Source: Blepharisma japonicum (taxonomy: Eukaryota; Ciliophora; Heterotrichea; Heterotrichida; Blepharismidae). Taken from it: a stretch of 64,000 nt of DNA. The position numbers and the translations under genes were made by a program. Every line of letters begins with the position of its first letter. The stretch's first letter is position 1. Positions 3,030 to 26,316 of the stretch are shown piece after piece. Location: assembly GCA_949751835.1 (NCBI GenBank), contig CATKHK010000094.1, positions 1 to 64,000 on the forward strand, written 5' to 3'. Below the pieces are notes generated by a model. The model worked only from the letters and a program-made list of their open reading frames with translations, had not been told where the DNA came from and did not search any database.

Positions 3030-3646
3030 TGATCATACGTTACTATATAAAGCCTGAAGTTCAAAAGCCATATTAATAAAATGAGCTTGAAAATTGAAGA
3101 AAATTGAGAAATCAGCCTCATAAAGATCACAAAAATTTTATAAATTTGGCACTATCTAAAAGTGTTAGTCCTAAAGAGTTCAAATAGAAAGAGATTTCAC
3201 TTTGATGAACTTCAAAAAGTTTTAAATGGATATCGTAAACGAAAAATAAAAAAAACATAAATAAGTTGCTTTTCTTTATTTAAGCTTGCTGATCAGAGCT
3301 TAGAGATTATAAGTAAGTTAAAAAAGATCAAGCATAAGAAAATGATTCAAATAATCATTTTGTTAGTATATTTGAGGTCCTATTAATATATAAATATTAA
3401 TTAATAAAAATGTAACAGTCAGAAATTTTTATTTATTTATAATTATACAATATATGCCAAAGAAAAGTCCCAAAGAGAAAATAACTTATAAAAAAAAAAA
3501 AATCAGACTATGTAATATTTTCTTGGTTGTTGCATGGCTTTAAGTATCTAAAAGTGTAAAATAGTCAATAAAGACTAACGACAAAAGAGCAAGTCAAATA
3601 ATCATTCAGCTATTTTATTAATTTAGAAAAAATGAACCAAAAATTT
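3030..3646 (-). pseudogene. Decayed copy of the cluster membrane-protein gene (N-terminal half)
   Basis: This stretch matches the 5' half of the intact gene at 5122-6159 in two blocks: about 3030-3240 (the loop with LKSLGLD-like coding) and about 3490-3646 (the first membrane segments and the leader). They are separated by some 250 bp of unrelated AT-rich sequence. Many stops and indels interrupt it. It shows that the tandem array once extended further to the left. Confidence 0.7.
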
Positions 3647-3678
3647 ACCCTTTTTCCAATAAATGTAAAATAAATAAA

Positions 3679-4671
3679 CTAATATATTATTCTATAAATT
3701 ATCCTTACAATCCAAATCTGGCAATAAACTGAGAAGGTATTTGATGGTGCTTGAAAATTGTCACTTAAATCTCCATCTTCTGGGTACACTAAAAGATTTC
3801 CTACAGTTCATGATGATATATAAAACATCGTTTCTTTTAAGATTCAAATTTCTCCTCATAAAGCAGCAACTAAATTATATGTAAGATGCATGGCATATAT
3901 AAAAAATATATTCAAGAAATATATTTTGCATATTTTCCTCGTGTTTTCTTCTATTCCAAAGCGCTTTCCGACATTTGCTCAGGTTATTATGAAAAATTCA
4001 TAAAGTGCTAAAAAGGAAACTATAAAATAAAATGTAAGTAAATAGAAAATTCCAAAAGAAATTAATCAGAAAGAAATATCAATAATATCAAGTTTAGGAA
4101 AAAGTAGCTTTTTTAGTCAAAAAACTGTAGCAGCAATGATAATAAAAACATATTTACCCATAATATTATAAATATCATCATTATATGAAGTATATTTCAT
4201 AAATTTTACTCATGCTATTGCAAAAACAAAGACTGATACACCAAACATAATAAAATACTCATTTTCTCTTGCAGAATAACTGTAAAGCAAAAATAATAGA
4301 GGATTAATCATCCCAAAAAAGAAAGACCAATAAGCCTTTGTTGTTTGAGAACTATCAAATATTATAAACAGAGATATAAAGCTTGAAGCTCAGAAGCCAT
4401 AATAATCAATTAAGCTTGAGTATTGGAGAAGAGTTAGAAATAAATTTCACAAAGATCGCAAAAAATCTAAAATGCTAATGTTTTCTAAACCTATAAAATT
4501 CCAATAGAGTGAAATTTCAGTGTGATAAGCTCCAAAAAGAGTTAGTGGGATGTAATTGATGAAAAATAAACAAAATAGCCTTTCTGCCAACTTCTCTCTA
4601 TTTATTCTTGGATCTAAATAGTTTGGGGCTAAAATTACGTCTATAATTGCCAAGCATAAAATAATAAGCAT
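3679..4671 (-). CDS. Multi-pass membrane protein, cluster family, copy 1
   Basis: The frame is open for 330 residues when TGA is read as Trp, with ATG at 4671 and a TAG stop. It carries about eight hydrophobic segments: a leader-like MLIILCLAIIDVI, a FINYIPLTL segment, three to four central helices, and a C-terminal pair. The end holds the family signature LWGEIWILKE, then NLLVYPEDGD and a final YCQIWIVR. I recognise no known transporter, channel or enzyme motif. The protein is probably embedded in the plasma or an internal membrane. The neighbours are paralogues on the same strand. The start is the first ATG after an in-frame stop. Confidence 0.8.
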
Positions 4672-4865
4672 TTATTTATATTAATTTTGGGTTGGCCCAG
4701 CCCGGACAAATAGCAATCAAAAATTTATTCAATTAATAATACTACTAAATAAAAATTATCTTTTTAGTGTATCAGCTGTTTAACTAGAATTCTGTTGCGC
4801 TCCCTCAATTAAATTAGGTCGAAATTTATTTTTTATAAAAATTATTATTCTCACTATAAATTAAG

Positions 4866-5121
4866 AAGTAAAATCGAATTCTCTCTGAAATTTATACCAT
4901 CAAGCCAAAAATGCTTAGTCAAATTGCTTTTATAAGCTTTGAAATGCATTATATAAAAATGTTTCTCCTATCATAATTTTACTGATATTTTCTTCTGTTT
5001 GAATTATTAAACAAGGATTTATAAATGCAAATTGAAAAGGAGAAATATATCGATAAGAGTGCTTCACCCCAATAGCAATAATTAATGATACTAAACTTAA
5101 TTCCAGACTTTAATTAATTAA
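4866..5121 (-). pseudogene. Short coding relic at the left edge of the duplicated unit
   Basis: On the minus strand a frame of about 57 codons ends at TAA 4930-4932 and reads like protein (it includes YRYISPFQFAFI). The same stretch recurs near 9233-9480, where it contains stops. It has no start and no recognised family. It marks the left boundary of the 4.2-kb duplication, since similarity between the two copies begins at about 4866 and 9233. Confidence 0.45.
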
Positions 5122-6159
5122 TTAATTAATCAGATTAAGAATCCCTCTTATTATCCAAATTTGGCAATAAATTGAGATTGAATTCAACAGACCTTCAGAA
5201 AGATTATCACTATTTTCATTTTTTGGATAAACCAAAACATATCCTACTCCTCCAGCTTCAATAATAAACATTATTTCTTTTAACGATCAAAACTCTCCTC
5301 ATAGAGCTTCAACTAGTTGATTAGTGAGAAACATAGCATAAGAAAAAAATGCAATTAAAGCATATGCGCTAAGTATTTTTCATGCATTTTCTTCAATATT
5401 AAAATGCATTTTGCGATGTTCTTGAAACCTTGCTCAAAGAATTGAAAAATAATATAAAGTAGCTACATATGAAATAGAATAATAAGCTATAAGTAAATAC
5501 AAAACTCCAGAAGAAAAATAAAAGACCAGTAAATAATAAGAAATATCAAAAATATCAAGTTCATACAAAAAAAACCTTTTGAGTGTAAGCATTGTAGTAA
5601 CTATAATAAGATAAAGATATTTATCCATAGTTCGAGACATCCCTTTTGTTTTTATGCTCCTATAATTGAGCTTCAAAAATGTTAAAATAAATAGTCCAAT
5701 ATTTATTCCATATAATATAAAATATTCCTCATTATTTCTTACAGAAACATTGCAAAGCATAAAGAAAAAAGTATTGGTCATACCTATCAAGCAAGAAAAA
5801 TATGCCAATAAATCTTGAGAATAGTCATATAACATTACTAGAGATATAAAGCCCGATATCCAAAAGCTATACCAATAAAACAAACTTGAGCATTCAAGAA
5901 AATTGATAAATCAGCTTCATATAAATCGTAAAAGGCCTAGAATGCTTGCGTTGTCAATTAAGTCAAGCCCTAAAGACTTCAGATAAAGAGATATTTCATT
6001 CTGATAAACTTCAAAAAGTCCTAAAGGAATATAGTTTATAAAAAATAATAAAAATCAGGCGTATGCAATATTTTCTTGGTTTTTGTATGGCCTTAAGTAT
6101 CTGAAAGTGTAAAATAAGTCAAGAAAGATTAAAGATAAAAGAAGAAGCCAAATTATCAT
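5122..6159 (-). CDS. Multi-pass membrane protein, cluster family, copy 2
   Basis: The frame encodes 345 residues with TGA as Trp; ATG is at 6159 and TAA ends it. The layout matches copy 1: N-terminal hydrophobic leader (MIIWLLLLSLIFLDLF), FFINYIPLGLFEVY, then several membrane helices, LWGEFWSLKE, VGYVLVYPKN and a terminal YCQIWIIRG. The shared signature LWGE-W-LKE...LVYP shows that copies 1 and 2 are one family despite divergence. No enzymatic residues are recognisable. The gene lies about 95 bp from the downstream start of copy 3 on the same strand. A shortened relative is at 9482-10243. Confidence 0.8.
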
Positions 6160-6254
6160 TCAGCTATTTATTAATTCAGAAAAAATGAACCAAAAAATTT
6201 AGGATTCCCAATAAATTAATGCATATATAGCTTAGACTTCTTAAGATAATTAAA

Positions 6255-7271
6255 CTAGTATATATTTCTATAAACTATCCTTGCAATCAAAATCTGGCAA
6301 TAAACTGAGAAGGTATTTGATGGTGCTTGAAAAGTGTCTTTATAATCTCCATCTTCTGGGTACATTAAAAGATTGCCTACAGTGCATGATGATATCAAAA
6401 ACATCATTTCTTTTAAGATTCAAATTTCTCCTCATAAAGCAGCAACTAAATTATATGTAAGATGCATAGCATATATAAAAAAAGCATTCAAGAAATATAT
6501 TTTGCATATTTTTCACGTGCTTTCTTCGATTTTATAGCCTTTTCCATACTTTTCTTTGAAATCTGCTCAGGTTACTATAAAAAAATCATAGACTGCTAAT
6601 AAGGCAACTGCAAAATAAAATGCAAGTGAATAAAATATTCCAAAAGATAAAGAAATAGAAATAAATCAGAAAGAAATATCAAAATTATCAAGTTTAGGAA
6701 AAAGTAGCTTTTTTAGTCAAAAAACTGTAGCGACAATGATAATAAAAACATATTTGCCCATAATATCATGAATATCACCGCTATATCAATCATGTTTTAT
6801 AAATTTGACTCATGCTATTGCAAATACAAAGACTGATACACCATACATAATAAAATACTCATTTTCTCCTGCAGAATGACTGTAAAGCAAAAATAATAGA
6901 GGTTTAATCATCCCAAAAAAGCAAGACCAATAAGCCTTTGCTATTTGAGAACTATCATATACTATAATCAGAGACATAAAGCCTGAAGCTCAGAAGCCAT
7001 AAAAATAAACTAAGCTTGGGTATTGGAGAAGAGTAAAAAATCAGTTTCACAAAAATCGCAAAAAATCTAAATAGTCAATGCTTTCTAAACCTATAAAATT
7101 CCAATAGAGTGAAATTTCAGTGTGATAAGCTTCATAAAGAGTTAGTGGGATGTAATTGATGAAAAATAAACAAAATAGCCTTTCTGCCGACTTTTCTCTA
7201 CTTATACATGGATCTAAATAGTTTGGCGACAAAATTATTTCGATAATTGCCAAGCATAAAATAATAAGCAT
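6255..7271 (-). CDS. Multi-pass membrane protein, cluster family, copy 3
   Basis: The product has 338 residues and is closely related to copy 1 (3679-4671) and most similar to the copy at 10340-11359. ATG is at 7271 and TAG ends the gene. It contains FINYIPLTLYEAY, the central helices, a charged loop DFKEKYGKGYKIEE before the last membrane pair, LWGEIWILKE and LLMYPEDGD. Several Trp codons are TGA. Function is unknown. An integral membrane location follows from the hydrophobicity. Confidence 0.8.
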
Positions 7272-7374
7272 TTATTTATATTAATAAGCTTTTGGGTAGG
7301 CTCAGCATGTAAAACAGACATCAAAAATTTATTCAATTAATAATACTGCTAAAAAAATATTACTAAAATTAAGC

Positions 7375-8407
7375 TTATATTATTAAAATCATAATTAGTT
7401 TTCTCACTATCCAAGCTTGTAATCAAGCTCCAACCGCATTTGAAAAATTTGGACCCATCTGCTGCTGATCTTGATCTGGAAAAATTAAAATATGTCCACA
7501 TGCCCCAACTCCAATCATAAAGAGTCCTTCCTTTAAAACTCATATCTCATCTCCCACTAGTCAACTAATCAAATTATTAGAAAAAATCATCTCAATTATA
7601 AAGCCAACAAAAACTGCATAAATTTTTATAATTTTTAGAAAATTTTGCTTAAAAAAATGAACTTTTTTGAATCTTTCTGTAAATTCCTTGAATAAAGTTT
7701 GTAAATATTCAAAAAGAGATACATAGCATATCAGAAAGAAAAATAAAATAAAAAAAGTTATTCAAAGATATGATCCAAGGTAGCAAATAAATTTAAGAAT
7801 GTCAAATAAACCAGTATCTGGTAAGCAAAGAAATTTTATCGTTAAAAGCGTATTAATTAAAAATGATAAACTGTATCAGGTCATAGCTAGCTCTATCTGA
7901 TTAAAGAATATATTTGGTTTGATAAGATTAATACAAGTCATAACAAATATTGTAAAAAATGCAATATAAAGTATCAAAATTTTTTCATCATTTGAGAAGA
8001 TATAGTAAACTAAGAAGCACAATGCATTTGCTAGTGCAAAAAAACATGATATAAGTTTATCATCAGGCTTTTGACGAGCTATAATTTCCAATTAGAGACA
8101 TTATACCAAAAATCCAAAATAAATTTCAGATAAAACCGAATAAATAATGAAAAGCTTCGATAGTTAGATTTCATATCGGATTTAATCATAAAATAGGTAT
8201 AAGTATAAAACTTACATCAATTTCACTTATAATAGCAGAAATTCATTCACTGATTATTTGTGATAGTAATAAAAGGATGTAATTTGCCGCAAATAAGAAA
8301 AATAAAGAAGTTGGGATCTTTTCTTTTGCTGAAAACCTTATATGTTTCTTAATAATGCAACAGTCAAAAAGAAATAGAGAGAAAACTATCATCCAAAGGG
8401 TTATCAT
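7375..8407 (-). pseudogene. Frameshifted membrane-protein gene, cluster family, copy 4
   Basis: The gene aligns over its whole length with the intact copy at 11557-12588. One extra T in a T-run near 8070 shifts the frame after about 113 codons. Without it the gene would encode 343 residues, the same as the paralogue. The C-terminal signature in the true frame is LVGDEIWVLKEGLF, then HILIFPDQDQ and AWLQAWIVRK. Apart from this one base the reading frame is intact, so the break is recent, or is an assembly error in a homopolymer. Confidence 0.75.
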
Positions 8408-8542
8408 ATTTTATAATCTTTGCAATTAAAAAGACATTGATGAACTAGCTAATTTAAAAATTTTAAATGCTATTTTAACTCAAAATTTTGTTTTCTCAAT
8501 AAATAGAGTTTATAAATATTTAATCTCTGCGCTTAAGATTAA

Positions 8543-9160
8543 TTAAGGAATGTAATGATAAACTGTGTTATCATTTTCACTTCTCATTAAGAAATCTCTG
8601 TTAATTAGACTTTCTATTTGATCACTTATCATTGACACTTTTGGTTTAAAATTTTGCATTTATTGAAATACTTCCTCTATCATGTCTTGATGCTTTATTA
8701 TTTTCGATTTTTTTGCAATTTTAATTAAAATTGAATCAATTATGTTTTTTCTTTCATTTAGAATCGCAGTTTCTTCTTTCTTTTGAATTGATTCACTCCT
8801 AGAAATCATCTTCGGGAGATAGTTTATCTTCATATTTTTTGACTGAAAATCCTCATTAATTTCAATTTTCCCATCGATATTGAGTTTTTTTCCTTTGCTT
8901 TCTTTCTTTAGAAGTTGATATTTTGGATTAAAAAATTTTATTAAATTGGCTTTTAAAGTTGTTTCTCGTAACTTAGAATTTTCAATCATTTCTTTAACAG
9001 TGAAGGAATTTTTTTGATTAAACATTAATAATAAAGCAGCTTGATAAGGATTTACAATGCAAATATAATTATTCGGAGTGAACATTGTTGCTAAGTCTAT
9101 AGTTCCTGATGCCATAGTTCAAGTAATCTTTCGCTTATGATATTTTTCTAAGATATATAA
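8543..9160 (-). pseudogene. 3' fragment of the cullin gene
   Basis: This is nearly identical to the last 200 codons of the complete cullin at 12722-14920, starting within the cullin-homology domain (near the KRKLT-like segment) and running to the C terminus. A TAA replaces a codon near 8660 in the neddylation region. Similarity stops abruptly near 9160, where the duplicated unit ends. There is no 5' part and no start, so it should not make a working cullin. Confidence 0.85.
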
Positions 9161-9481
9161 AGTGCAGACTATCATTAGCAATTTTGGGATATTTTCAAAA
9201 TTCAAAGTTAACCAAAATCGTTTAATATTTTAAAGTAAAATCGAATTCTCTCTGAAATTTATATCATTAAGCCAAAAATGCTTTAGTCAAATTGTTTTTA
9301 TAATCTTTAAAATGCATTATATAAAAATGTTTCTCCTATCATAATTTTACTGATATTTTCTTATGTTTGAATTATTAAGCAAGGATATATAAATGCAAAT
9401 TGAAAAGGAGAAATATAACGATAAGAGTGCTTCACCTAAATAGCAATAATTAATGATACTAAACTTAATTTCAGATTTTAA

Positions 9482-10243
9482 TTAATTAATCAAATTAAGA
9501 ATTCTTCTTATTATCCAGATTTGGCAATAAATTGATATTGAATTCAACAAACCTTCAGATAGATTATCACTATTTTCATTTTTTGGATAAACCAAAACAC
9601 ATCCTACTCCTCAAGCTGCAATAACAAACATTATTTCTTTTAACGATCAAAACTCTCCTCATAGAGCTTCAACTAGTTGATTAGTAAGAAACATAGCATA
9701 AGAAAAAAATGCAATTAAAGCATATGCGCTAAGTATTTTTCATGCATTTTCTTCAATATTAAAATGCATTTTGCGATGTTCTTGAAACCATGCTCAAATA
9801 ATTGAAAAATAATATAAAGTAGCAGCATATGAAATAGAATAATAAGTTATAAGTAAATACAAAACTCCAGAAGAAAAATAAAAGACCAGTAAATAATAAG
9901 AAATATCAAGTTCGTACAAAAAAACCCTTTTGAGTGTAAGCATTGTAGTAACTATAATAAGATAAAGATATTTATCCATAGTTCGAGACATCCCTTTTGT
10001 TTTTATGCTCCTATAATTGAGCACAATGCTTGCATTGTCAATTAAGTCAAACCCTAAAGACTTCAGATAAAGAGATATTTCATTCTGATATACCTCAAAA
10101 AGTCCTAAAGGAATATAGTTTATAAAAAATAATAAAAATCAGGCGTATGCAATATTTTCTTGGTTTTTGTATGGCCTTAAGTATCTAAAAGTGTAAAATA
10201 AGTCAAGGAAGATTAAAGATAAAAGAAGAAGCCAAATAATCAT
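9482..10243 (-). CDS. Multi-pass membrane protein, cluster family, copy 5 (internally shortened)
   Basis: The frame encodes 253 residues and is the paralogue of the 345-residue copy 2. A block of about 266 bp has been lost after LGLDLIDNASI, joining it straight to LNYRSIKTKGMSR. The frame remains open to the same C terminus (LWGEFWSLKE, CVLVYPKN, YCQIWIIRR). Two to three membrane segments are lost, so the topology must differ from its relatives. The unbroken frame could mean a working short form or simply a recent deletion. Confidence 0.65.
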
Positions 10244-10339
10244 TCAGCTATTTTATTAATTTAGAAAAAATGAACCAAAAAATTTAGGATTCCCAATAAA
10301 TTAATGCATATATAGTTTAGACTTCTTAAGATAATTAAA

Positions 10340-11359
10340 CTAATATATAATTCTATAAATTATCCTGACAACCCAAATCTGGCAATAAACTGAGAAGGTA
10401 TTTGATTGTGCTTGAAAAGTGTCAATATAATCTCCATCTTCTGGGTACATTAAAAGATTGCCTACAGTGCATGATGATATCAAAAACATCATTTCTTTTA
10501 AGATTCAAATTTCTCCTCATATATCAGCAACTAAATTATATGTAAGATGCATAGCATATATAAAAAATATAATCAAGAAATATATTTTGCATATTTTTCA
10601 CGTGCTTTTTTCGATTTTATAGCCTTTTCCATACTTTTCTTTGAAATCTGCTCAGGTTACTATAAAAAAATCATAGACAGCTAATAAGGAAACTATAAAA
10701 TAAAATGCGAGTGAATAAAAAATTCCGAAAGATAAAGAAATAGAAATAAATCAGAAAAAAATATCAAAATTATCAAGTTTAGGAAAAGGTACCTTTATAA
10801 AAAAAAAAACTGTATCAACAATGAAAATAAAATAATATTTAACCATAATATCATGAATATCATCAGCGTCATATAAATTAATCTTTACAAATTTTGCCCA
10901 TGCTGATGCAAATACAAAGACTGATACACCATACATAATAAAATATTCATTTTCTCCTGCAGAATGACTGTAAAGCAAAAATAATAGAGGATTAATCATC
11001 TCAAAAAAGTAAGGTCAATGTGCCTTTATTGTTTGAGAACTATCATATACTATAATCAGTGATATAAAGCTTGAAGCTCAGAAGCCATAAAAATAAACTG
11101 AGCTTGAGTATTGGAGAAGAGTAAGAAATGAATTTCACAAAAATCGCAAAAAATCTAAATAAGTAATGTTTTCTAAACCTATAAAATTCCAATAGAGTGA
11201 AATTTCAGTATGATAAACTTCAAAAAGAGTTAGTGGGATGTAATTGATGAAAAATAAACAAAATAGCCTTTCTGCCGACTTTTCTCTACTTACTCTTGGA
11301 TCTAAATAGTTTGGTGACAAAATTACATCGATAATTGCCAAGCATAAAATAATAAGCAT
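10340..11359 (-). CDS. Multi-pass membrane protein, cluster family, copy 6
   Basis: The product has 339 residues, from ATG at 11359 to a TAG stop. It is nearly identical to copy 3 at its ends. The central part (KFVKINLYDADDIHDIMVKY, then FFFIKVPFPK) has diverged more. It keeps FINYIPLTLFEVY, the long charged loop before the last membrane pair, and the ending YCQIWVVRII. The family signature reads IWGEIWILKE. Function is unknown; it is an integral membrane protein by hydrophobicity. Confidence 0.8.
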
Positions 11360-11556
11360 TTATTTATATAAATAAGCCAGTTATTGAAGCTCCTCTGCCC
11401 TTGGCTAGGCTCAGCATGTAGAACAGAAATCAAAAATTTATTCAATTAATAATACTGCTAATTTCTTAATCATATCCCAATAATAATTTTTGAAAATCAT
11501 AAAGTCATTTCATGAGAATTCACAAATATACTTAGAAAATTTTACTAAAATTAAGC

Positions 11557-12588
11557 TTAAATTATTAAAATCATAATTAGTTTTCTCACTACCCAAGCTT
11601 GTAATCAAGCACCAACCGCATTTGAAAAATTTGGACCCATCTGCTGCTGATCTTGATCTGGAAAAATTAAAATATGTCCACATGCCCCAACTCCAATCAT
11701 AAAGAGTCCTTCCTTTAAAACTCATATCTCATCTCCCACTAGTCAACTAATCAAATTATTAGAAAAAATCATCTCAATTATAAAGCCAATAAAAACTGCA
11801 TAAATTTTTATAATTTTTAGAAAATTTTGATTAAAAAAATTAACTTTTTTGAATCTTTCTGTAAATTCCTTGAATAAAGTTTGTAAATATTCAAAAAGAG
11901 ATACATAGCATATCAGAAAGAAAAATAAAATAAAAAAAGTTATTCAAAGATATGATCCAAGATAGCAAATAAATTTAAGAATCTCAAATGAGCCAGTATC
12001 TGGTAAGCAAAGAAATTTTATCGTTAAAAGCGTATTAATTAAAAAAGATAAATTGTATCAAGTCATGGCTAGATCTATCTGATTCGAGAATTTATTTGAT
12101 TTGATAAGATTAATCCAAGTCATAACAAATATTGTAAAAAATGCAATATAAAGTATCAAAATTTTTTCATCATTTGAGAAGATATAGTAGACTAAGAAGC
12201 ACAATGCATTTGCTAGTGCAAAAAAACATGATATAAGTTTATCATCAGGCTTTGACGAGCTATAATTTCCAATAAGAGACATTACACCAAAAATCCAAAA
12301 TAAGGTCCAGGTAAAACCGAATAAATAATAAAAAGCTTCGATAGTTAGATTTCATATCGGATTTAATCATAAAATAGGTATGAGTATAAAACTTACATCA
12401 ATTTCGCTTATAATAGCAAAAATTCATTCACTAATTATTTGTGATAGTAATAAAGGGATGTAATTTGCCGCAAATAAGAAAAATAAAGTAGTTGGGATCT
12501 TTTCTCTTACTGAAAACCTTATATGTTTCTCAATAATGCAACAGTCAAAAACAAATAAAGAGAAAACTATCATCCAAAGGGTTATCAT
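11557..12588 (-). CDS. Multi-pass membrane protein, cluster family, copy 7
   Basis: The product has 343 residues from ATG at 12588 and is the intact version of the frameshifted copy at 7375-8407. It begins MITLWMIVFSLFVFDCC, has AANYIPLLLSQI in place of FINYIPL, a middle section NYSSSKPDDKLISCFF, a Phe-rich membrane segment, a basic loop (EFTERFKKVNFF), and the C-terminal signature LVGDEIWVLKE with LIFPDQDQQ. It lies about 130 bp downstream of the cullin stop on the same strand. Confidence 0.8.
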
Positions 12589-12721
12589 ATTTTATAATCT
12601 TTGCAATTAAAAAGACATTGATTAACTAGCTAATTTAAAAATTTTGAATGCTATTTTAACTCAAAATTGTGTTCTCAATATATAGAGTTTATAAATATTT
12701 AATTTCTGCACTTAAGATTAA

Positions 12722-14920
12722 TTAAGGAATATAGTGGTAAACTCTGTTATCATTTTCACTTCTCATTAAGAAATCTCTGTTAATTAGACTTTCTATTTGA
12801 TCACTTATCATTGACACTTTTGGTTTAAAATTTTGCATTTCTTGCAATACTTCCTCTATCATGTCTTGATGCTTTATTATTTTCGATTTTTTTGCAATTT
12901 TAATTAAAATTGAATCAATTATGTTTTTTCTTTCATTTAGAATCGCAGTTTCTTCTTTCTTTTGAATTGATTCACTCCTAGAAATCATCTTCGGGAGATA
13001 GTTTATCTTCATATTTTTTGACTGAAAATCCTCATTAATTTCAATTTTCTCATCGCTATTTAGTTTTTTTCCTTTGCTTTCTTTCTTTAGAAGTTGATAT
13101 TTTGGATTAAAAAATTTTATTAAATTGGCTTTTAAAGTTGTTTCCCGTAGCTTAGAATTTTCAATCATTTCTTTAACAGTGAAGGAATTTTTTTGATTAA
13201 ACATTAATAATAAAGCAGCTTGATAAGGATTTACAATGCATATATAATTATTGGGAGTAAAGATTGCTGCTAAGTCTATAGTTCCTGATGCCATAGTTCA
13301 AGTAAGCTTTCGTTTATGATATTTTTCTAAATAAAAATTTTCAAATAATTGAGTGCAAGATATTAATTCTCTAGGAATTGAGCAAAGTTCTGGAGGATTT
13401 TCTGGCCAGCATTCACTTTTTAAAATCTTAATCTCTATTTCAATCCCACTTATGCTACCTCTGCCTGACTCTTTATAATCCTCCATAAGTTTTTCAGATA
13501 TAGAGATATCATTATAAAAGATCAACATTTTATGAGCATATTTTCCTCCAAATCTCTCTTTGAGTTTATAAATCATTGATTTTTCGGCATATTCACTCGA
13601 GCTTGTCCCTTCTAACAATCTTTTAGACAAATATCATGTATAATGGTGTATGAAAACATCACAATCATCCAGATAAGAAATTATATTTACTATAGTGTCC
13701 AAAATTTGATCAGTTTCCACTTCAGAAGTAGGTCTGAGGCCAACTCTCATTTGTCAGTCGCAATAGCATGCACAATAGGCTGTGGAATTTGAGACTCCAT
13801 TAATAAACTTTCTGAAAAAGTTGTCCCATCATTGCTTGTAAGGCTGAAAACAGTTAAATGTAGTTTTGATTAATAAATCAATCTCACATTTAAATAAAAT
13901 TGAAGCTTTTATATACTCAATTCAGTCAAGCTTAAGCTGCTCATTATTTGAAATTGAATTTCCTTTGTCGTTTATATAATCATAAAGAATTTTTGTCAGA
14001 TTTTTAATATCAGGTTCTGAATGCTTTAAAATATCGAATATAGGCTTAAAAGATGCGTTTTTTGAAGCATTAGCCATGCCTTCACATAAGGTATTTTCCA
14101 TATCAGAAAGCTGCAGAGGATTTCAAAACTGGAATTCTCTAAAAAAAATATTCAAAAGTTTTTTTTTTGTCGTAGGCCTTAAATAATTTTCAGCCCTTTC
14201 TACTTCTTCATTAAGAAACTCTCCAATAGCTATCAAATACTCGTAATATGGCAAATTTTTAATCAATTCAATTATTTTTGATGCATAGAATTGCTGGGAT
14301 TCTCTTAAAAAGTCATTTTCAAAACAAAATTCATAACACTTCAGCGCTTGCTTTTCTTTACATGAAAATTTTTCATTCCCAGCTTCACCTAATCCAATAA
14401 GTAATTTTCATAAGAAACTAAAATACTTTTGTGTAATGCTTTTGTCTGCAATTAAGCCTTCTCTTTCATATTTCAAGTGCTGAATAAGTGCTTCTCCAAG
14501 TTTATTAGGCAGATAATTTAGTGGTTTCTGACTAAAATTAAAAAGTCATTTTATATTATCATATTCCTGAGGGTGTTTAAAAATTTTTCTGGTTAAGTCT
14601 GTAAGCTTATCATGAAAATTTAGTCTCTTGGCAATAGATGACAAAAGATCTTCTCCTGATAAATCAAAAAGTTCAGATTGTAAGTAGCTGACTGTATAGC
14701 TTTGAACAGAATTTATGCAAGAATTATAGAGCTCATTTATATCTTCAGGATCGCCAGCTGATTCCAAAATTTTTTGATAAACAGAATTTAAATCAGTTTT
14801 TTCTAATGAGCAACCGTCTTGCAAGTATGAAATTAAACTCTCAATGAAACATCCTTCTGTTCATTCATATTGCTTTTGCAAAAATCTTTTCCTGCTGGAT
14901 GAATTATACTTACGGGACAT
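12722..14920 (-). CDS. Cullin, scaffold of an SCF/CRL-type ubiquitin ligase
   Basis: One frame of 732 residues with TGA as Trp. The N-terminal half is helical as in cullin repeats. The cullin-homology domain follows: YLSKRLLEGTSSSEYAEKSM, KLKERFGGKY, SECWPENPPE, and the landmark YHKRKLTW. The C-terminal winged-helix/neddylation domain reads ERKNIIDSILIKIAKKSK, in which the Lys of IKIAK matches the Nedd8 acceptor, and the protein ends YHYIP. Cullins bridge a RING protein and substrate adaptors. An F-box protein is encoded at 42263-44212, but a partnership is only inference. Its 3' end is duplicated at 8543-9160. Confidence 0.92.
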
Positions 14921-15237: not shown

Positions 15238-16158
15238 TTATTTATTAGACTTTTGTGACTTGAAAACAGTTGTATGTTCATCTCCACATTCATAACCTTC
15301 ATTTCTATCATAGCAGCCAGAATTTTGGTATTCTTCACATTTATTGCTTTCATCGTGGTCATTGCATCCACATCCTTCATCTCTTTCATCTTTTTCAGTT
15401 TTTTCATCTCCGCATTCATTTCTTTCATCTCCACATTCATCTTTTCCATTTCGATATTCGTTTCTTTCGTCTCCGCATTCATTTCTTTCGTCTCCACATT
15501 CATCTTTTTCATCTCCACACTCATTTCTTTCATCTCCATATTCATTTCTTTCGTCTCCATATTCATCTTTTTCATCTCCACACTTATTTCTTTCATCTCC
15601 ATATTCATTTCTTTCATCTCCACATTCATCTTTTTCATCTCCATATTCGTTTCTTTCATCTCCGCATTCGTTTCTTTCATCTCCACACTCATCTTTTTCA
15701 TCTCCACATTCATTTCTTTCATCTCCATACTCGTTTCTTTCATCTCCACATTCATCTCTTGTATCTTCGCATTCATTTCTTTCATATCCGCATTCATCTC
15801 TTGTATCTCCGTATTCATCTCTTTCATCGCACTCACTTCTTTCGTCATATTCGTGTCTCTCGTCTCCGTATTCGTTTCTTTCATCACACTCACTTCTTTC
15901 GCTATATTCATCACATTCAGTTTCTTCATTAAAGTTATTATGCTCATCTCCTTCATCATATCCACAGTTCTCATCGCTCCATTTTCTGCAAAATCTATTA
16001 TCGAATTCATCTTTTCAAGTCAACCTATTCTCATCCCAGCATCCATTTCTATTTACTTTCCATTGAGGCTGTGCCACACGATTACATGGAGCAGCCACTC
16101 CAGGAAGAATCGCAAATGCTACAGCAGAAATAATTACCAGAATTAGTAGCTTACTCAT
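15238..16158 (-). CDS. Secreted protein of Cys/Tyr-Gly-Asp-Glu heptad repeats
   Basis: The true frame runs from ATG 16158 to TAA 15238-15240 and encodes 306 residues with TGA as Trp. It opens with a classic signal peptide (MSKLLILVIISAVAFAILPG, then VAA). A Cys- and Trp-containing linker follows, then about 20 heptads of the form [C/Y]GDE[R/K][N/D]E, and a short Cys-rich tail (GCGCND, KCEEYQNSGC, YECGDEH). A Cys or Tyr recurs at every seventh position in an extremely acidic, charged chain. Such a chain could bind Ca2+ or crosslink through disulfides or Tyr, but this is inference. I know no family for it. It divides two parts of the membrane-protein cluster. Confidence 0.85.
15415..15870 (-). 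repeat. 21-bp coding minisatellite inside the heptad-repeat gene
   Basis: The DNA repeats every 21 bp, one heptad each, with a hint of a 63-bp higher unit in which the heptads alternate C..RN, Y..RN and C..KD. Because 21 is divisible by three, several other frames on both strands also stay open over this stretch. Those frames read as Met/Glu- or His/Phe-rich chains and are by-products of the repeat. Confidence 0.9.
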
Positions 16159-16743: not shown

Positions 16744-17200
16744 AAGCCAAAACTGAGTATAACATCCTGTCAGTCAGAAAAAAATATTTGATCCCCTTTT
16801 TTATTTTTTCTGGGTAGTTTAAAAGTTCAGAAAAATAGCCAACTCATATAGAATATAAAGTCTTTGAATAGTCAATTGTATTCGTATCTTTCATTAAATA
16901 AATCTAAAGTTAAATATGAAGCAACTATATAAATTAATCCATATGGTCGTAAAAATCTTGCTATTGTTTCATCAGTTTTATGCTTTTGAGAGCTATAATT
17001 CAATCTTCTGATAGAATCGTTTCAAGCCAAAAATCAATTTGACTAGCCATATTTTCTGTAAGGTATTATCAAGATCCTTGGAGATCAATATAGGGAAATA
17101 ATTAATTGGAAATAAGATAGTTAAAATTTGTGAAGTATCTTTGGGGAAGGCCTACAATAAGGATTATAATATCATGATCCTTTTTAAATAATTATATGCA
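16744..17200 (-). pseudogene. Decayed membrane-protein gene, both ends left
   Basis: About 16744-16990 matches the 3' end of the intact gene at 17601-18614 (the DLAGCYTQF region and the preceding membrane segment). About 17030-17200 matches its N-terminal part (LFPINYLPISI region). The middle is missing and both parts contain stops. It is a further remnant of the cluster. The following 400 bp hold nothing recognisable. Confidence 0.65.
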
Positions 17201-17600: not shown

Positions 17601-18614
17601 TTAATATATAGAGATTGAAAAACCTATTGCTCTTAAAATTATAAATTGAGTATAGCATCCTGCTAAATCTGAGAAAAATATTTTATCCCCAGTATCATTA
17701 GTTTTAGGCGCATTCAAAAGAACTGAGAAATAGCAAATTCCTATAAAATATAAAACTTCATTGAACAGCCAATTTTTCAAGTAGCAAGAATTAAAAAATT
17801 CTATAATAAAATAAAATGCAATTATATAGATGGCTATGTATCCATATGGTAATGATATTTTGGCCAAAACCTCTTCAATCTTATGTTTAGCTGTCATATT
17901 ATAGCTTTCAAATCATAAAGAACAATCATAAATATGATCAATGTTTGATATAAAAAACATCATAAAATAAATAGCAGTTATCACCAGCACTAAATATTTG
18001 ATTAATAAAAATGATAAATCAATAATAAGTTCTGAGATTTGAAATTTTAACCCAAAAATAAATGATAATCCCACAATTAAATTTATTATAGCTGTTAATA
18101 GATAAAGATAAGAGGGGATTTTATATTGAGAAATGAGAATTCCAAAACCATAGAAATGTTGATATACTAGGTATAATAATAGAAAAACTACCAAACAATA
18201 AAAATCATCTCCAATAGAATCTTTAAGTGCAAGGCAAACTAAATTACAGGAAATTCCTATTAGAGCAGATCTATATATATAATAAATACCATTGGGCATT
18301 CATAGAGTTTGAAAATGCACAAAAGATGATACGCATAAGCTTAATAATCCAAAAATTAGCCAATAATTTAAGCTCTTCAAAGTTATTATTCATCCTTGTG
18401 GAAAAAATATTTCAAGATTTGGTTCAAGAGAAGTTATAATAATTTCTAAAAGGTAGTCATCTATAGTTTTTGAAATAGATATAGGCAAATAGTTAATAGG
18501 GAATAAAGTTGCAAGAACTCAAGTACACTTTGGAGGTTGACTGTCAAGATATTTTTCGATAAAATAATAGTTAAAGCATAAGAGTAAAAAGGCGATAAGG
18601 ATAATAAATATCAT
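17601..18614 (-). CDS. Multi-pass membrane protein, cluster family, copy 8
   Basis: The product has 337 residues from ATG 18614 to TAA. It starts with a hydrophobic leader (MIFIILIAFLLLCFNYYFI) and has LFPINYLPISI in the position of the FINYIPL segment of the left-hand genes. Several helices follow, then KIEEVLAKISLPYGY, and the C-terminal stretch IFFSDLAGCYTQFIILR. The ordering of hydrophobic blocks and the terminal aromatic-Gln...Arg motif suggest that it is a distant member of the same family. Function unknown. The paralogue at 20266-21267 is its closest relative. Confidence 0.75.
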
Positions 18615-18700: not shown

Positions 18701-19648
18701 TTAAATTAAATTCCATAAAGCTTTGATAACATATACTTGAGAATATGTTCCAATAAAATTAGAGGCAAATATCCGAAATCTTCTATTATTATCGTCTGGA
18801 AAAGCAATAAAAGAAGCTAAAATTGCTGACATAAAAATCCACACAAATTCGTTTATTATTCAAAAGTTAGACCAGAATTTAGCAACCAAAATCACCTCTA
18901 AATTTGAACCAAATACAAAAATATATATTTCAGTCATCATAAAATAAAACTTCTTTTCTTTTTTCTTGTCTAGCAGTTTAATATATTTATCAGAGCTATC
19001 CAAATGCACGCAAAAGCAAATAAAAAAGAAAATTAGTATCACAAAAATTTCAGAGAAATTTATAATAAGGCTAATAATATTGATGAGGAATTCTACTCTA
19101 TTCAATTTATCGCTACAAAAAGCAATAACTTCTATCATAATATCCAAGAAAAACATTAAAATATAAATAAAAGTTTGTCATGATATTGAGCTTCTCCAGA
19201 TTGTTCACAATGAGAATAAAGAAACGATAATAAAAACAAATGCTGATTGATACGATGATAAAGAATTTCTTACATAAATTGATATCAAGATATTGACAAC
19301 TCCTAATGAAAATGAGAGATTTCGATATTGCTGGGGATTATAAAAATATTTAATTCATAATAGTGTGAAGCAAAAACAAATAGATAAGTAATATTGAGGT
19401 AAGTCAAATAAAATGTAACTATTAGAGCAGCCGAGAATTGCTTTATATAAATCATCAATAAATTTGTCTCTGATCTCTAATATTATTTGATCCAATTTCT
19501 GGGTATAAGATGTAGTAAAATAATCTGCAAAAAATCATAAACTGATAATTACTTTACCCTTTCTATAATAAGCTGGGTCAATGATATGTCCAATAGAAAA
19601 GTAATTGGCTGATAAAACAATACAAACAACTAATACTGTAATAATCAT
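18701..19648 (-). CDS. Multi-pass membrane protein, cluster family, copy 9
   Basis: The product has 315 residues from ATG 19648 to TAA. It carries about seven hydrophobic segments, an internal NPQQYRNLSFSLGVVNI stretch, RSSISWQTFIY, and a Lys-rich cytosolic-type loop LLDKKKEKKFY. It ends NFIGTYSQVYVIKALWNLI. It is nearly identical to the gene at 21823-22758, showing a second local duplication of this gene with its upstream copy-8-type neighbour. No functional motif recognised. Confidence 0.78.
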
Positions 19649-19689
19649 CCACTTAAGATTATTTTATGTCACATTTATTAACTTTTAGA

Positions 19690-20109: not shown

Positions 20110-20214
20110 ATGTTGAGATCATTCCTACGTAGCCCATATCGGGTGGATCCAATCCGAAACTTTTACCAACAACAAGCCAGCCAGGAAGCTACAGTATGCG
20201 CCACATCGTGCTAG
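20110..20214 (+). other. GC-rich short ORF, possible relic of a mitochondrial-protein gene start
   Basis: A 105-bp stretch of about 50% G+C stands out within DNA of about 20% G+C. On the plus strand it is open for 34 codons from ATG. Its start, MLRSFLRSPYRVDPIRNFY, is Arg-rich, lacks early acids and resembles a mitochondrial import presequence. It stops at a TAG. The minus strand is broken. It could be a relocated gene fragment. I cannot name the source. Confidence 0.35.
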
Positions 20215-20265
20215 ATTATAATAATTCCCATTACTCTTAATAAGTTTTATATATATAATATTAAC

Positions 20266-21267
20266 CTAATTTAATAGATAATATCTTATTGTCAAAAATT
20301 GGATATAGCATCCTGCTAAGTCTGAAAAAAATACTCGATCTACATCTTTATCAGGGTTTGGAAAATTTATAATAGCTGAAAATTGGCCAACTCCCACTAA
20401 ATACAAAAATTCGTAAAATAGCCCAATTTGCTGATAACTGGAATTAAAAAAATCTAATGCAAGATAAAAAGCAACCAAAAAAATTAATATATAGCCATAT
20501 GGAGATAATAATTTCATTAAAACTTCTTCGATTGAACATTTTCCAGCAGAACGATAATTTTCAAAGCGCTTATAAGAATCTGCAAGGTAGTCAACATTTG
20601 TTATAAAAAAACTCAAAAAATAAATAAATGTTAAAGCCATCGCTCCCAATTTTATAGTTAAAAAAAATAAATAAATCATAAAACTAAAAATTTGTAAATC
20701 TCATTCAAAAAATGATAATAGGCATATAGTTGAACTAAGCACTGTTATAAGTAGATAAAAAGATGAAATTTGAGAATAATAAATGTTGCTTCTATATCTA
20801 TAGAAATGCTGAATAATTTGATATAGTAAAAACAAAAGTATATAAAATTTATAAATGCATTCAATATAATCATTGATTAGGAGTAAATAGATCAAATTGC
20901 AAATAATCCCTTTAGAGGAAGATTGAGCTATACTTATGGTACCTTTATTGAATAAAATCATATGCAGCTGCAGAGCAGAAATAGAGAATAAAGCTAATAA
21001 CCCACAAATTAGTCAGTAGTTTAAACTTTTCAATATTTTGCTTCATTCTTGTGGGAAAAAAATATCCAATAAAAGCTCAAGAATTGTAGTCATCATTTCT
21101 GAAAAGTAATCATCAAGAATCTTTGAAGTTGATATAGGTATAAAATTAATAGGAAATAAAATAGCGAAAACTCAAGTAGATTCTATAGGCCGCCCAGTCA
21201 CGTATTCTTTTATTAAATATCTGTCTATAAAAGTAAGTAGAAGTACAATAAGAGCAATAATTATCAT
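20266..21267 (-). CDS. Multi-pass membrane protein, cluster family, copy 10
   Basis: The product has 333 residues from ATG 21267 to TAG. It is the paralogue of copy 8, with LFPINFIPISTSK near the N terminus, CSIEEVLMKLLSPYGYILIF in the C-terminal third and VFFSDLAGCYIQFLTIR near the end. Sequence conservation is highest in the last 100 residues and the N-terminal loop. Membrane location by hydrophobicity; function unknown. Confidence 0.77.
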
Positions 21268-21504
21268 GACTCTTTATTCATTAATAAACGCTATTACCAT
21301 TTTAGCAAGAGCAAAAACAACAAGTTTAGATATTACTGCAGTTTAAACTTCATTATATTCAGTAATTTAGTTAAAGATATTTTTCTATTTGCTTTAACTT
21401 TCAATTACTAAAAATTTCATTCTATTTTTCCATAAATCTGTATTTTATGCTATAATTATAATGATATTAAGATGTATTTCTAAATAAAAAAGAATATATT
21501 TTTT

Positions 21505-21785
21505 CTTAAAACCTTTATATATATTAGTGCACCTATTTGATTATAAAATGATAGCCACCATTCTCTTGGGTCTTTCAAGGCTATCATTATCTCTAATAAG
21601 CCTCTCTATACATCTTGAAATTTAAATATAATACTTCTTGAAAAATCAATACATTTGGCCATATATCTTCTGCAAAGTCAAGCATTAATCCTACAAAAAA
21701 TTAAAATAAAGAATGAGAGTAAAAAGCAATAAGGATAATTAATATCATGAATTCCAAAACAGAAATTATTTATTATATTAAATCA
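21505..21785 (-). pseudogene. Fused remnants of two cluster genes
   Basis: About 21510-21700 resembles the 3' end of the gene at 25438-26316 (REFWLLFCNQIGVYTHLK region). About 21715-21785 matches the 5' end of copy 8 (18580-18660). The second part is the edge of the block duplicated together with copy 9. Neither part is open. Confidence 0.6.
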
Positions 21786-21822
21786 TAATTAAAAATGTCA
21801 TGCCATTATTAGAATGATAAAT

Positions 21823-22758
21823 TTAAATTAAATTCCATAAAGCTTTGATAGCATATACTTGAGAATATGTTCCAATAAAATTACAGGCAAATATATGCAA
21901 TCTTCTATTATCATCGTCTGGATAAGCAATAAAAGAAGCTAAACTTGCTGACATAAAAATCCACACTAATTCGTTTATTAGTCAAAAGTTTGACCAGAAT
22001 TCAGCAGCCAACATCGCTTCTAAATTTAATGCAAATAAAAAAATATATATTTCAGTCATCATAAAATAAAATTTTTTGTCTTTTTTCTTATCTAGCAGTC
22101 CAATATACACATCAGAGCTATCCAAATGGACACAAAAACAAATTAAAAAGAAAATTACTATCACAAAAATTTCAGAAAAATTTATAATAACGCTAATAAT
22201 ATTGATGAGAAATTCTACTCTATTCAATATATCGGAACAAAAAGCAATAGTTTCTATCATGATATCCAAGAAAAACATTAAAAAATAAATAAAAGTTTGT
22301 CATGTCATTGAGCTTCTCCAGATCGTTCACAATGAGAATAAAGAAATGATAATAAAAATAAATGATGATTGATAAGATGATAAAGAATTTCTTACATTAA
22401 TTGATATCATGATATTAGCAACTCCTAATGATAATGAGAGATTTCGATATTGTCGAGGATTATAAAAATAGTTAATTCATAATAGTAGAAAGCAAAAACA
22501 AATAGATAAATAATAGTGCGGTAAGTCAAATAAAATGCATATATCAGAGCAGCTGAGAATTGCTTTATATAAATCATCAATAAATTTGTCTCTGATCTCT
22601 AAAATTATTTGATCCAACTTAGCAGTAAAATAAGATGTGAAAAATCATAAACTGAGAATGAGTTTACTCTTTCTATATTGCCTTGAGTCAAAGAACTTTG
22701 CATCTAAAAAGTAATTGGTTGAAATAAAAATATAAACTACTAGTGCTGTAATAATCAT
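21823..22758 (-). CDS. Multi-pass membrane protein, cluster family, copy 9b
   Basis: The product has 311 residues from ATG 22758 to TAA and is a close duplicate of the gene at 18701-19648. Shared landmarks are FCFLLLWINYFYNPRQYRNL, SSMTWQTFIYF, LLDKKKDKKFY and the end KALWNLI. Differences are scattered and mostly conservative, and both copies are open, which suggests selection on both or a recent duplication. Confidence 0.78.
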
Positions 22759-23115
22759 TTTCCTTGACCTACTAAAGATTATTTTTATCACAATTATTAA
22801 CTTTAGAAATTATTGATGGAATAAATAAGACATACACATGTCTTAAAACCTCTATATAGGATAGATACCTATTTGAGGATGCGGAATATATCACTCTTTA
22901 GCAAATTCTGTAGTGAATTCTAATGTGTGTTCTCTTTTTTAATAAGGTTGAGAACAAAGCCCTGAGATAAACGAAACTCTAAAGTAATAAAGATTATTAA
23001 ACCATCTTTTAAGCAGATTAAAATTTGTTGAGTTGTTAAAAAATTATCAGATTTTATAACAAATAAGTACCTTTTTTTATATTATTCAATTAAATAATTA
23101 TCTATTATATTATTT
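22759..23115. other. Intergenic spacer with a small gene relic
   Basis: This spacer continues the duplication shared with 19649-19900, including the relic of a cluster-gene 3' end at about 22830-22930. Nothing else is recognised. Confidence 0.5.
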
Positions 23116-24003
23116 CTAAATAATTAAAGCATAAAGATATCTTAAAAATTTAATAAAGATATAGAACCCGATCTGGTTGGAAAGTGTAATTCAATAGTAT
23201 TTCATATCTCTTAAATCATAAATTGTATCATTTACAAATCTTACTATGGAGCCAGAAACTAAAAAGTAGCACCCTTCTCTGTAAATCGTTATATTTGGCA
23301 ATTTACTTTCTGCAAGCTCAAGTGATCAGTATACACTGAAAAAGAAAAATACATTGCAGATAAACTTTTCAAATACCCTCGAAAAAGCTATTTCTATTCC
23401 ATTAATATACTTTATCTTTATAAATCTTTCAGGTATGCCTTCATAAAAATCTGTCAAAAAATCACATCATCGTATTATGTTTGCCTCATTGTACATTAAA
23501 AAGTACCCAATAATATTGTCAGTTCCCAAATACTTGAATAAATCAAACACCAATCATAAAATAAAATATATACCATGAATTTCCTCTGGTAAATATGATA
23601 TGTCTACACAGATGCTAGTTATGAACAGAAGAAGCCATAATATATATCCTAAAAATAGAACACTATCTTTAATTTTAAGAGTTTTAGATTGAGGGAAAGC
23701 AAAATTAGAAACGATAAAGAGATGATAATAGAGATGGGGATAGATTTCAATCAACAAATAAGGATTCTGTGAAATAGTTAAATCTGTGATGTTAGTAGTT
23801 CTGTCAAGAGATCAGTCTTCATAGCTGGAGCTCTTAATAAAGTTAAATATGAGCTCTACTTCAGCTAAAAAATACAAAAAGCAATAGTAATTGAATAAGA
23901 AGGAAGCAATATATCGATACCAAGAGGTTGTAATTTGCTTTGGGGTAAAATATATTTCAGAAATAGCTATCCATAATAACAAAAGTAGCCCCAATAATAT
24001 CAT
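23116..24003 (-). CDS. Multi-pass membrane protein, cluster family, copy 11
   Basis: The product has 295 residues with TGA as Trp, ATG 24003 and a TAG stop. It begins MILLGLLLLLWIAISEIYF, followed by LFNYYCFLYFLAEVE in the position of the FINYIPL segment. It has about seven hydrophobic blocks, a loop YEGIPERFIKIKYINGIE, and the end YWITLSNQIGFYIFIKFLR. It is the most divergent type together with the gene at 25438-26316. No known domain. Confidence 0.72.
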
Positions 24004-24301
24004 TCAAATTATTTATTATATATTATGGATATATATCTGAAAGAAATGAGTGAAAAATATATTAATAGAGTTAGCCAGATACAATATCTGATTAATTGAC
24101 TCTATAGATTATCTTTTAAGTTTTCATATTCAAATGGACTTATCTTACTTTGAATTTTATAAGAAAAAGTCAAATGATCAGAAAGATTGAAATTTATTTA
24201 TTACCTGCGATCTTTTATATGTAGCCAAATAAATACATTACATTGTTCTTAAGCAGAAGCTCGAAACTTTAAAATGGATTACTCCTCTCATTTTTTATTA
24301 A

Positions 24302-24499
24302 CTAACTTTTCTCTGTGCTATATCGATTGAATGCTACAGAAAGTTTTGCAAGCTTTCCATCATTTGATAACTCATCGTGGAATAAAATCCATTTAGCTAA
24401 TTCATAGCATTGCTTTTCTTTATGATAGGATTTTTTATATTCAAGTAAAATGCTACTTGAAATAAAGCTATTCCTATAAAAGTGTATTGAACTTCATTA
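24302..24499 (-). pseudogene. Orphan coding fragment
   Basis: A frame of about 65 codons without a start ends at TAG 24302-24304. It looks protein-like (LLEYKKSYHKEKQCYELAKW, then FHDELSNDGKLAKLSVAF). It is helical and charged, unlike the membrane family around it. I do not recognise it. It is probably the tail of a lost gene. Confidence 0.4.
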
Positions 24500-24856
24500 T
24501 CTATTATCAAGGTAATGAATAGAGCATGAATATAGCAAAAATAAGATATTTAAATAAATTGATATACATATTAAAAGTGATAATTTCAATAGATTTAAAT
24601 CCTTAAATTCTATAGGATTTCTAATGCTATCATTACAAACTGATAAATAGATAGGCCATAGAATATTGGCTATGTTTTCTTTAATTAAAGAATAGCATTT
24701 TGAACCAAATATCTTTGGTTTCTAAATTTGTAACTCAAAATGTCTAGATATTAGCAGTCTATTATAATATAAATACTATAGAATTATTAATTACCAAAAT
24801 CGAAAGGCTTTATTTTGGACATTAAATATTCATTTGGTTGAAGAAACAAAAATTAA

Positions 24857-25333
24857 AGCACAATGAAGATATGGAATAGCAATGTGAAAATCAGAATGAA
24901 TAAAATAAATAGTGGAGAACATCTAAATGATTTATGCGAAAATTGCCAAACGAAAGAAACAGAAGAACATATTTTGGATTTCTGTCCTAGATTCTCAGAA
25001 GAAAGAAAAACATTTCTTAATAGACTGAAAGATGCAATTGGAATTAATTACTTGAAAGTAAAACTCTACATTTGAATGCTAGTTGATGCATCGGAACATA
25101 AAATAATTGCAGGACTAGAGTTGGATCATTTTAAACAAGTAGACTTTATTACAAAAGTTAATTTAAAAATTATTGATGAAAAATTAAAAAAGAAGAAAGG
25201 AAATATAATCAAAGAGTATGAAGAAGAACTAATTGAAGCAGGAATATTAGAAAATGGTATTGAAGAATGGAAAAATATAAAAAGATTCAAACTAGGACGG
25301 CTTCCTAGAAGGCATCGTAATTTAAGTAATTAA
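24857..25333 (+). mobile_element. 5'-truncated LINE, C-terminal end of a non-LTR reverse-transcriptase ORF
   Basis: The frame encodes about 159 residues with one TGA-Trp and ends at TAA. It carries the CCHC-like knuckle found after the reverse-transcriptase domain of many LINEs: CENCQTKETEEHILDFCPRF followed by the usual Arg. A basic, Lys-rich C-terminal tail follows (KLKKKKGNIIKE, GRLPRRHRNL). The reverse-transcriptase core is absent, since an in-frame stop lies just upstream at 24854. The piece is therefore a typical 5'-truncated insertion. It is the only plus-strand coding stretch of any length in the membrane-gene cluster. Confidence 0.65.
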
Positions 25334-25437
25334 CTAAGTATAAGAGTTAGGGGAATCGTTGGCAAGCAAATTTAATCATATAATCACATGAGTCAATTTC
25401 TTCTTCAATTTTCGAGCATTATCTCTTTAAAATTATT

Positions 25438-26316
25438 TTAATTAATACAGAAAACATAAATCAAACATAAAATCTTTAGATGTGTATATACACCTATTTG
25501 GTTGCAAAATAAGAGCCAAAATTCTCTTGGGTCTCTCAATTTAAAGTCAAAATCTTTGACGAGCCTTGATATACATCTTGATAATAAGAAATAATACCCC
25601 TCTCTGAAAATTCAAATATTTGGTCATATAGTTTCTACAGTTTCAAGTGTCCAGCTAGTCGAAATAAAGAAAAACACTAAACTTATTAAATTTTCAAATA
25701 GTTTAAGAAAGTTTATTTCAGCATTTTTGCTAGTTTTTAAATTTACCTCAAATTGTTTTCAAAATTTATGCCATTGATACGCATTTGCAGCATCATAAAG
25801 ATGAAAGAACATGATAGTCAATGAAGCTACAATGTATTTTAAAAACGCAAAATGTAGTCAATATAAAAAATCAGAATTTAATGATAAGTCAGTAGTATAT
25901 GATAAATCTGCAAGAAGGCTCATAACGCATAATAAAAGTCATAATAAAAATGCCCAAGCGGGATTGCCAAGCTTTTTCGTTGCATAGGCGACAAGTGCTA
26001 AGCAAAAATTGTATGCAATAAATAGGGTATAGTAGGAATGTGAAAAACTTTGGTTACTGAAAGAAGGGTTTCCTGAAGTACATCAGTTTGTAATTGAAGT
26101 AAGTAAGCTTGGAATTAATTCTTCAATGCCAGAGGCTTTAAAAGCATTAGTTAGGCATTTATCAATAATTGAAAAATATAGGAAGGAAAAGTAATTTACT
26201 AAAAACGTAATCACAAATTGATAGGAGTTATGCTGAATTTTCTCTCTGTTAAAGTATGTTTTCAAAATAAAGAAATTTGCTATAGTAAGTAATAAAAAAA
26301 GTCCTGAAATTATCAT
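25438..26316 (-). CDS. Multi-pass membrane protein, cluster family, copy 12
   Basis: The product has 292 residues from ATG 26316 (MIISGLFLLLTIANFFIL) to TAA. In-frame codons upstream lack an ATG, so this start matches its relatives. It has VNYFSFLYFSIIDK in the FINYIPL position, several hydrophobic blocks and AWAFLLWLLLCVMSLLADLS, and ends FCNQIGVYTHLKILCLIYVF. It is the closest relative of copy 11 and marks the right end of the cluster. Function unknown. Confidence 0.72.

Follow-up and report, generated by a model that had tools for sequence, protein, structure and literature searches.

A tandem array of multi-pass membrane protein genes points to a family found so far in Blepharisma only

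Do the look-alike membrane protein genes crowded near one end of a Blepharisma contig form a single family, and what could such a family do? The window analyzed here covers the opening 64 kb of C94, a 159-kb contig in a genome of 45.2 Mb and 224 contigs, and carries a tandem array of these genes at 2817-26316 on the minus strand. Our analysis confirms that this family array is genuine, and sequence comparison suggests that its genes encode a newly recognized family of multi-pass membrane proteins, found so far in Blepharisma only.

UGA reads as tryptophan in the window genes, and a DHHC palmitoyltransferase-like gene contains a 16-nucleotide intron (57055-57070, plus strand), the two flanking parts of which join to give the expected DHHC...NNCVG. 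In this regard, UGA as tryptophan and introns of 15-16 nucleotides are described for Blepharisma stoltei (PMC9942806). Because these features coincide, and because B. stoltei proteins are the nearest database relatives of the window genes yet at most 78% identical to them, the window probably belongs to a Blepharisma species other than B. stoltei. B. japonicum, of which PMC9942806 mentions a preliminary assembly, would be a tentative candidate.

Gene content of the array

Translated with UGA as tryptophan, the array contains twelve open family genes, eleven of full length (292-345 residues) and one internally deleted, together with one frame-broken copy and four relic patches (Table 1). The initial annotation had proposed twelve open genes and one single-base frameshifted gene on the same strand, which is borne out by the open reading frames (ORFs) and by a run of A near 8072. 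Its right end, 26316, also stands; the array begins near 2817 instead of 3030, and the relics, put there at five or more, come to four patches at tblastn E<=1e-3, a threshold at which reversed queries gave 0 matches. ORFs of at least 250 residues number 16 on the two strands of 3001-26400 (12 family, 4 other), and 200 shuffles of this interval in 2-base blocks produced none. The frame break of 7375-8410 was also considered as a 16-nucleotide intron, a reading that was rejected in favor of a one-base difference. UGA supplies 78 of the 115 tryptophans in the twelve open family genes against 26 of 69 in nine other window genes, and third-position GC is 22% in the former against 27% in the latter.

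Table 1. Features of the array, in window coordinates; family genes are named in the text by their first position.
Position	Strand	Feature	Evidence or remark
2817..3358	-	Relic, N-terminal half, left-group type, several frames	tblastn E 1.6e-21 (P0002), 3.4e-20 (P0005)
3511..3605	-	Relic, first ~32 residues, 5122 type	tblastn E 1e-5
3679..4671	-	Open family gene, left group, 330 aa	
5122..6159	-	Open family gene, left group, 345 aa	1:1 partner B. stoltei P0005 (78% identity)
6255..7271	-	Open family gene, left group, 338 aa	
7375..8410	-	Frame-broken copy	96.2% identity to 11557-12588; one-base length difference, A run near 8072
8660..9175	-	Truncated cullin 3' part, brought by block duplication	7354-9151 vs 11536-13330, 96.3%
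9482..10243	-	Open family gene, left group, 253 aa	~90 internal codons fewer than 5122-6159
10340..11359	-	Open family gene, left group, 339 aa	
11557..12588	-	Open family gene, separate subtype, 343 aa	
12722..14920	-	Cullin gene, non-family, within array	Pfam Cullin 5.6e-97, Cullin_Nedd8 2.6e-15
16773..17145	-	Relic, 17601 type, two pieces	tblastn E 3.7e-13, 3.7e-5
17601..18614	-	Open family gene, 337 aa	
18701..19648	-	Open family gene, 315 aa	
20266..21267	-	Open family gene, 17601 type, 333 aa	
21507..21678	-	Relic, C-terminal piece, 25438 type	tblastn E 3.1e-8
21823..22758	-	Open family gene, 18701 type, 311 aa	
23116..24003	-	Open family gene, 25438 type, 295 aa	Without helix 4-5 stretch
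25438..26316	-	Open family gene, 292 aa	Without helix 4-5 stretch; partner B. stoltei P0003 (72% identity)

Relatedness and distribution of the subtypes

Profile comparisons confirm that the subtypes are related, if unequally firmly. A left-group profile of 15 sequences finds 11557 (6.9e-52), 20266 (2.3e-9) and the 25438 type (1.4e-4, P0003), and does not reach the 18701 type at E<=1. The profile of this last type matches a copy on contig C168 at 0.0038, and profile-profile comparison aligns the type with the left group over 113 columns (probability P 95.5%, E 1.5e-8). The 25438-type profile recovers nothing else at E<=1, and profile-profile comparison gives P 86.7% and E 4.4e-6 for this type. 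None of the 10 profiles matched a reversed-sequence decoy at E<=1. On these comparisons the left group, 11557, C215_3602, the 17601 type and C27_15574 are firmly related, and the 18701 and 25438 types moderately so.

Further out, a trio on C27 is joined mainly via 11557 (P 87.6%, E 3.5e-6), one of the three reaching 2.4e-7 with the window profile. A very divergent pair beside family genes (C215:539-1564 and C215:2346-3338), picked by eye and missed by the family profile, is firmly linked only within itself (P 95.6%), its link to the remaining members being weak (best P about 50%). The membership of these outer proteins, the C27 trio and the C215 pair, is less certain than that of the window members.

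Single-protein searches, together with a profile run over fetched contigs, locate members on C94, C168, C56, C215 and C27, where 30 full-length open members were recognized (11, 8, 3, 4 and 4, respectively). Eight relatives occur in B. stoltei (P0001-P0008), public entries titled 'unnamed protein product' to which no function is assigned; they belong to the same family, including 1:1 tree partners, and probably come from another species than the window copies. The protein searches score only candidates sharing short words (in one search, only the 7996 sharing most words), and the third used the C27 subgroup alone as query; they returned no relatives outside the genus Blepharisma, which marks a detection limit and is not proof of absence. 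A limited literature search, with most subscription papers outside its reach, found no description of such a family.

Duplication history

The block at 4866-9151 is repeated at 9233-13330, in pieces that are 93.8%, 91.4% and 96.3% identical. This duplication of about 4.2 kb took along a piece of the cullin gene, and the left copy ends in the truncated cullin 3' part, which marks the breakpoint. The close pair 6255/10340 falls within the duplicated block; further close pairs are 3679/6255 (79% amino acid identity) and 18701/21823 (80%). A tree of 37 rows (30 of this genome and 7 from B. stoltei, all of its 8 proteins but the short P0004) contains both 1:1 partners across species (5122/P0005 and C215_9569/P0002) and species-specific duplicates, as for a C27 pair against P0007/P0008. 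Across species, identity is 70-78% in the four closest pairs tested. Deep forks of the tree are weakly supported (60/93), and long branches may attract each other. Taken together, the tree and the block duplication carrying the cullin piece show that the family evolves by birth and death. The initial view of one undescribed multi-pass family with such a history is supported by the related subtypes, by relatives recovered from B. stoltei only and by the searches for known families.

Searches for known families and folds

Fifteen distinct members (8 from the window; 14 of alignment A2), of the 38 recognized including those of B. stoltei, were scanned against Pfam and gave no credible match; the best rows, ExbD (0.027), NmrA (0.55), MerC (1.1) and DUF3258 (4.5), are taken as chance. 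Sequence profiles against the PDB gave nothing reliable, and alignment A4 returned no row; weak rows for SREBP cleavage-activating protein (0.73, A1) and 'Non-structural protein 2' (1.1, A5) were set aside as unreliable.

Two AlphaFold2 models were obtained, model 1 from 11 rows (mean predicted local distance difference test, pLDDT, 65.3; predicted template modeling score, pTM, 0.59) and model 2 from 18 rows (70.6 and 0.42). Both are of low confidence, and neither gave a Foldseek match at E<=0.001. Model 1 has weak rows that include AgamOR28, Gr43a and many G protein-coupled receptors (GPCRs); those for model 2 include designed helical proteins, a few GPCRs, and TMEM16/TMC chains for helices 7-9. 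The 50 VIA rows listed per model are designed proteins, three-helix pieces, GPCRs and further helical proteins. Because the two models disagree on the nearest fold, we draw no fold conclusion, and neither Pfam, PDB sequence nor Foldseek searches placed all subtypes confidently in one known family.

A W...E...P pattern near the protein end recalls GOST proteins, which belong with the GPCRs. GOST (PF06814) was not among the Pfam matches of the 15 members, no GOST protein is among the VIA matches listed (50 per model), and the single GOST_TM match in the genome lies on C7, outside the array.

Predicted topology

Helix positions were taken from AlphaFold model 2 and evaluated on 30 rows (37 aligned rows minus 7 near-duplicates). 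Lysine and arginine make up 17.5, 17.6, 12.7 and 18.1% of loops 1, 3, 5 and 7, and 5.2, 4.5, 4.1 and 2.2% of loops 2, 4, 6 and 8; the former exceed the latter in 29 of 30 rows, the exception being 17601. Loop 9 is mixed (9.0% lysine and arginine, 26.9% aspartate and glutamate). The sides were assigned after viewing the window genes, so that this is a consistency test and not a blind one. From the charge pattern, the N terminus is predicted to lie outside and the membrane helices to number nine, followed by a C-terminal hydrophobic helix whose placement is uncertain, in place of the roughly eight segments first annotated; the three rows of the 25438 type are without the helix 4 and 5 stretch. 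We infer that the hydrophobic leader is a membrane helix rather than a cleaved signal, because few charges precede its hydrophobic core and more follow.

Charge and hydropathy further predict (i) an amphipathic outer segment between helices 2 and 3, (ii) between helices 7 and 8, a long, charged extension on the cytosolic side and (iii) a tryptophan-rich outer loop, which reads W-G-E-x-W-x-L-K-E in the left group, where the motifs initially annotated (LWGE-W-LKE and those following) are present. Polar or charged residues are conserved in or near helices at N42, N129, K261, E295, N326, Q333 and R338, with 18-26 of 30 rows carrying each.

Selection

The ratio of nonsynonymous to synonymous substitution rates (dN/dS) lies at 0.31-0.90 in 27 of 28 pairs of more than 60% identity, with 0.58 for 18701-19648 against 21823-22758; the exception is a C56 pair at 2.51, a value resting on one synonymous change. 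The ratio of the corresponding proportions (pN/pS), pooled over five groups, is 0.60. Among paralogues, pN is lower in outer loops (0.048-0.069) than in inner loops (0.076-0.188), and the regional ratios are rough, since few synonymous changes were counted in each region (0 to 17, with none in one outer loop). In four cross-species pairs, differences amount to 87/279 positions outside (31%), 79/235 inside (34%) and 188/826 in membrane helices (23%). These values speak for constraint on average and against diversification of the outer loops. Amino acid change is not concentrated in the predicted outer loops, either among paralogues or across species, and the diversifying selection initially supposed is not supported; a whole-gene dN/dS near 0.6 would still be compatible with positive selection at single sites.

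Neighboring genes and contig context

To the right of the array lies a conserved cilia gene with SPEF2/CPC1 domains (28739-32668). Within the array, 15238-16158 (minus strand) is a 306-residue ORF that begins with a hydrophobic stretch and contains numerous imperfect repeats, acidic and with cysteines (DERNECG-like); Pfam gave no match for it. The ORF at 24863-25333 (plus strand) shows a weak likeness, short of the cut-off, to the zinc-binding end of LINE-type reverse transcriptases (zf-RVT, E 0.18) and is perhaps a retroelement relic. A gene at 46003-47187 (minus strand) has an ISXO2/IS1595-like transposase domain (E 1.3e-8). Rfam gave no match at the gathering threshold.

On other contigs, copies of proteins of about 890 residues, whose start is rich in cysteine and histidine by eye, stand among family genes at C168:12841-15498 and at several places in C56:296954-314713; some are broken, and the one scanned, on C168, has TPR repeats. 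Additionally, ORFs covering just the C-terminal two thirds of a Ras-type GTPase occur at C168:24916-25329, C168:35295-35705 and C56:289805-290215; the one scanned corresponds to Ras 60-161 of 162, and the beginning may lie in a separate exon or be absent.

On C94 and C56 the array is close to contig ends. Telomeric repeats (at least two CCCTAACA units) were found neither in the window nor in 12 fetched stretches, and a subtelomeric position is not supported.

What the family may be

We tentatively read the family as chemosensory or ligand-gated, a possibility suggested by the overall pattern and not by homology. On this reading the proteins, located in a cell-facing membrane, would serve as receptors for small molecules or as ligand-gated channels, with a ligand pocket among the helices and output through the helix 7-8 region, and copies would differ in ligand preference. 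Insect odorant and gustatory receptors and the gustatory receptor-like proteins (7-transmembrane ion channels) likewise consist of helices, cross the membrane several times, measure about 300-400 residues and come from expanding gene families, and insect receptors appear among the weak rows of model 1 only. They have seven helices and the N terminus inside; more helices and an N terminus outside are predicted here, from sides not assigned blind. A cytosolic anchor domain and a split transmembrane helix 7 (TM7) are described for the insect receptor-like fold (PMC9998090), and the TM7 motif (T/S)Yhhhhh(Q/K/E)(F/L/M) is presented as diagnostic, if not definitive (PMC7746228).

Several points weigh against a chemosensory role. 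The insect motif is present in 0 of 30 members, and neither Pfam nor PDB profiles revealed receptor or channel homology. No fold match was significant, and of the insect-receptor rows seen with model 1 none recurs in the 50 listed for model 2. Variation in cytosolic loops equals or exceeds that in outer loops. Transporters and enzymes also commonly expand in tandem.

The main rival, somewhat unlikely in our judgment, is a lineage-specific transporter or efflux family, in which helices 3-9 would form the translocation path and copies would differ in substrate. The nine to ten helices, the conserved polar and charged residues and the spread of variation across membrane helices and inner loops are consistent with it; the 15 members match no Pfam transporter family, and an internal repeat was rejected, all six half-profile comparisons falling below their reversed controls.

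It is less probable that the last seven membrane helices represent a diverged GPCR-like receptor preceded by a hydrophobic hairpin. The predicted in/out order of helices 3-9 matches that of GPCRs, the A2 profile meets the neuromedin-B receptor over a two-helix stretch (E 0.01), and GPCR chains are frequent among the weak matches of model 1, a few recurring for model 2. However, the neuromedin-B row is not found with alignments A1 and A5, and the GPCR alignments of model 1, none of them significant, begin at residue 1 and not at helix 3. The 25438 subtype is without two of the seven helices, no separate N-terminal domain is seen, and no Pfam GPCR family, class A (PF00001) included, matches the 15 members; the five 7tm_1 (PF00001) matches of the genome lie on C42, C120, C33 and C24, none in the array.

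A bolder and distinctly improbable version of the chemosensory reading would be that heterotrich ciliates gave rise to chemoreceptors or ligand-gated channels of a new fold class, each genome encoding dozens of copies, among them possibly the receptor for a Blepharisma gamone (mating pheromone). In this regard, gamone 1 receptors are described as putative (PMC10892320), and a developmental RNA sequencing time course of B. stoltei is public (PMC9942806).

We consider a small relative of the TMEM16/TMC channel-scramblase fold very unlikely: the likeness to the ten-helix Anoctamin/TMEM16 proteins is a three-helix, low-weight alignment, mainly of helices 7-9, Anoctamin (PF04547) is not among the Pfam matches of the 15 members, and the 21 Anoctamin matches of the genome are separate genes, none of them on the five contigs that carry family members. 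Factors of surface recognition or mating that diversify for self/non-self would fit a tandem array with relics and old subtypes, yet they are the least probable candidates of all, given dN/dS below 1 in nearly every pair and outer loops that are short and not the variable part.

Together, an expanding family without known relatives, found so far in one genus, would provide a candidate set for chemical sensing or exchange in these large single cells.
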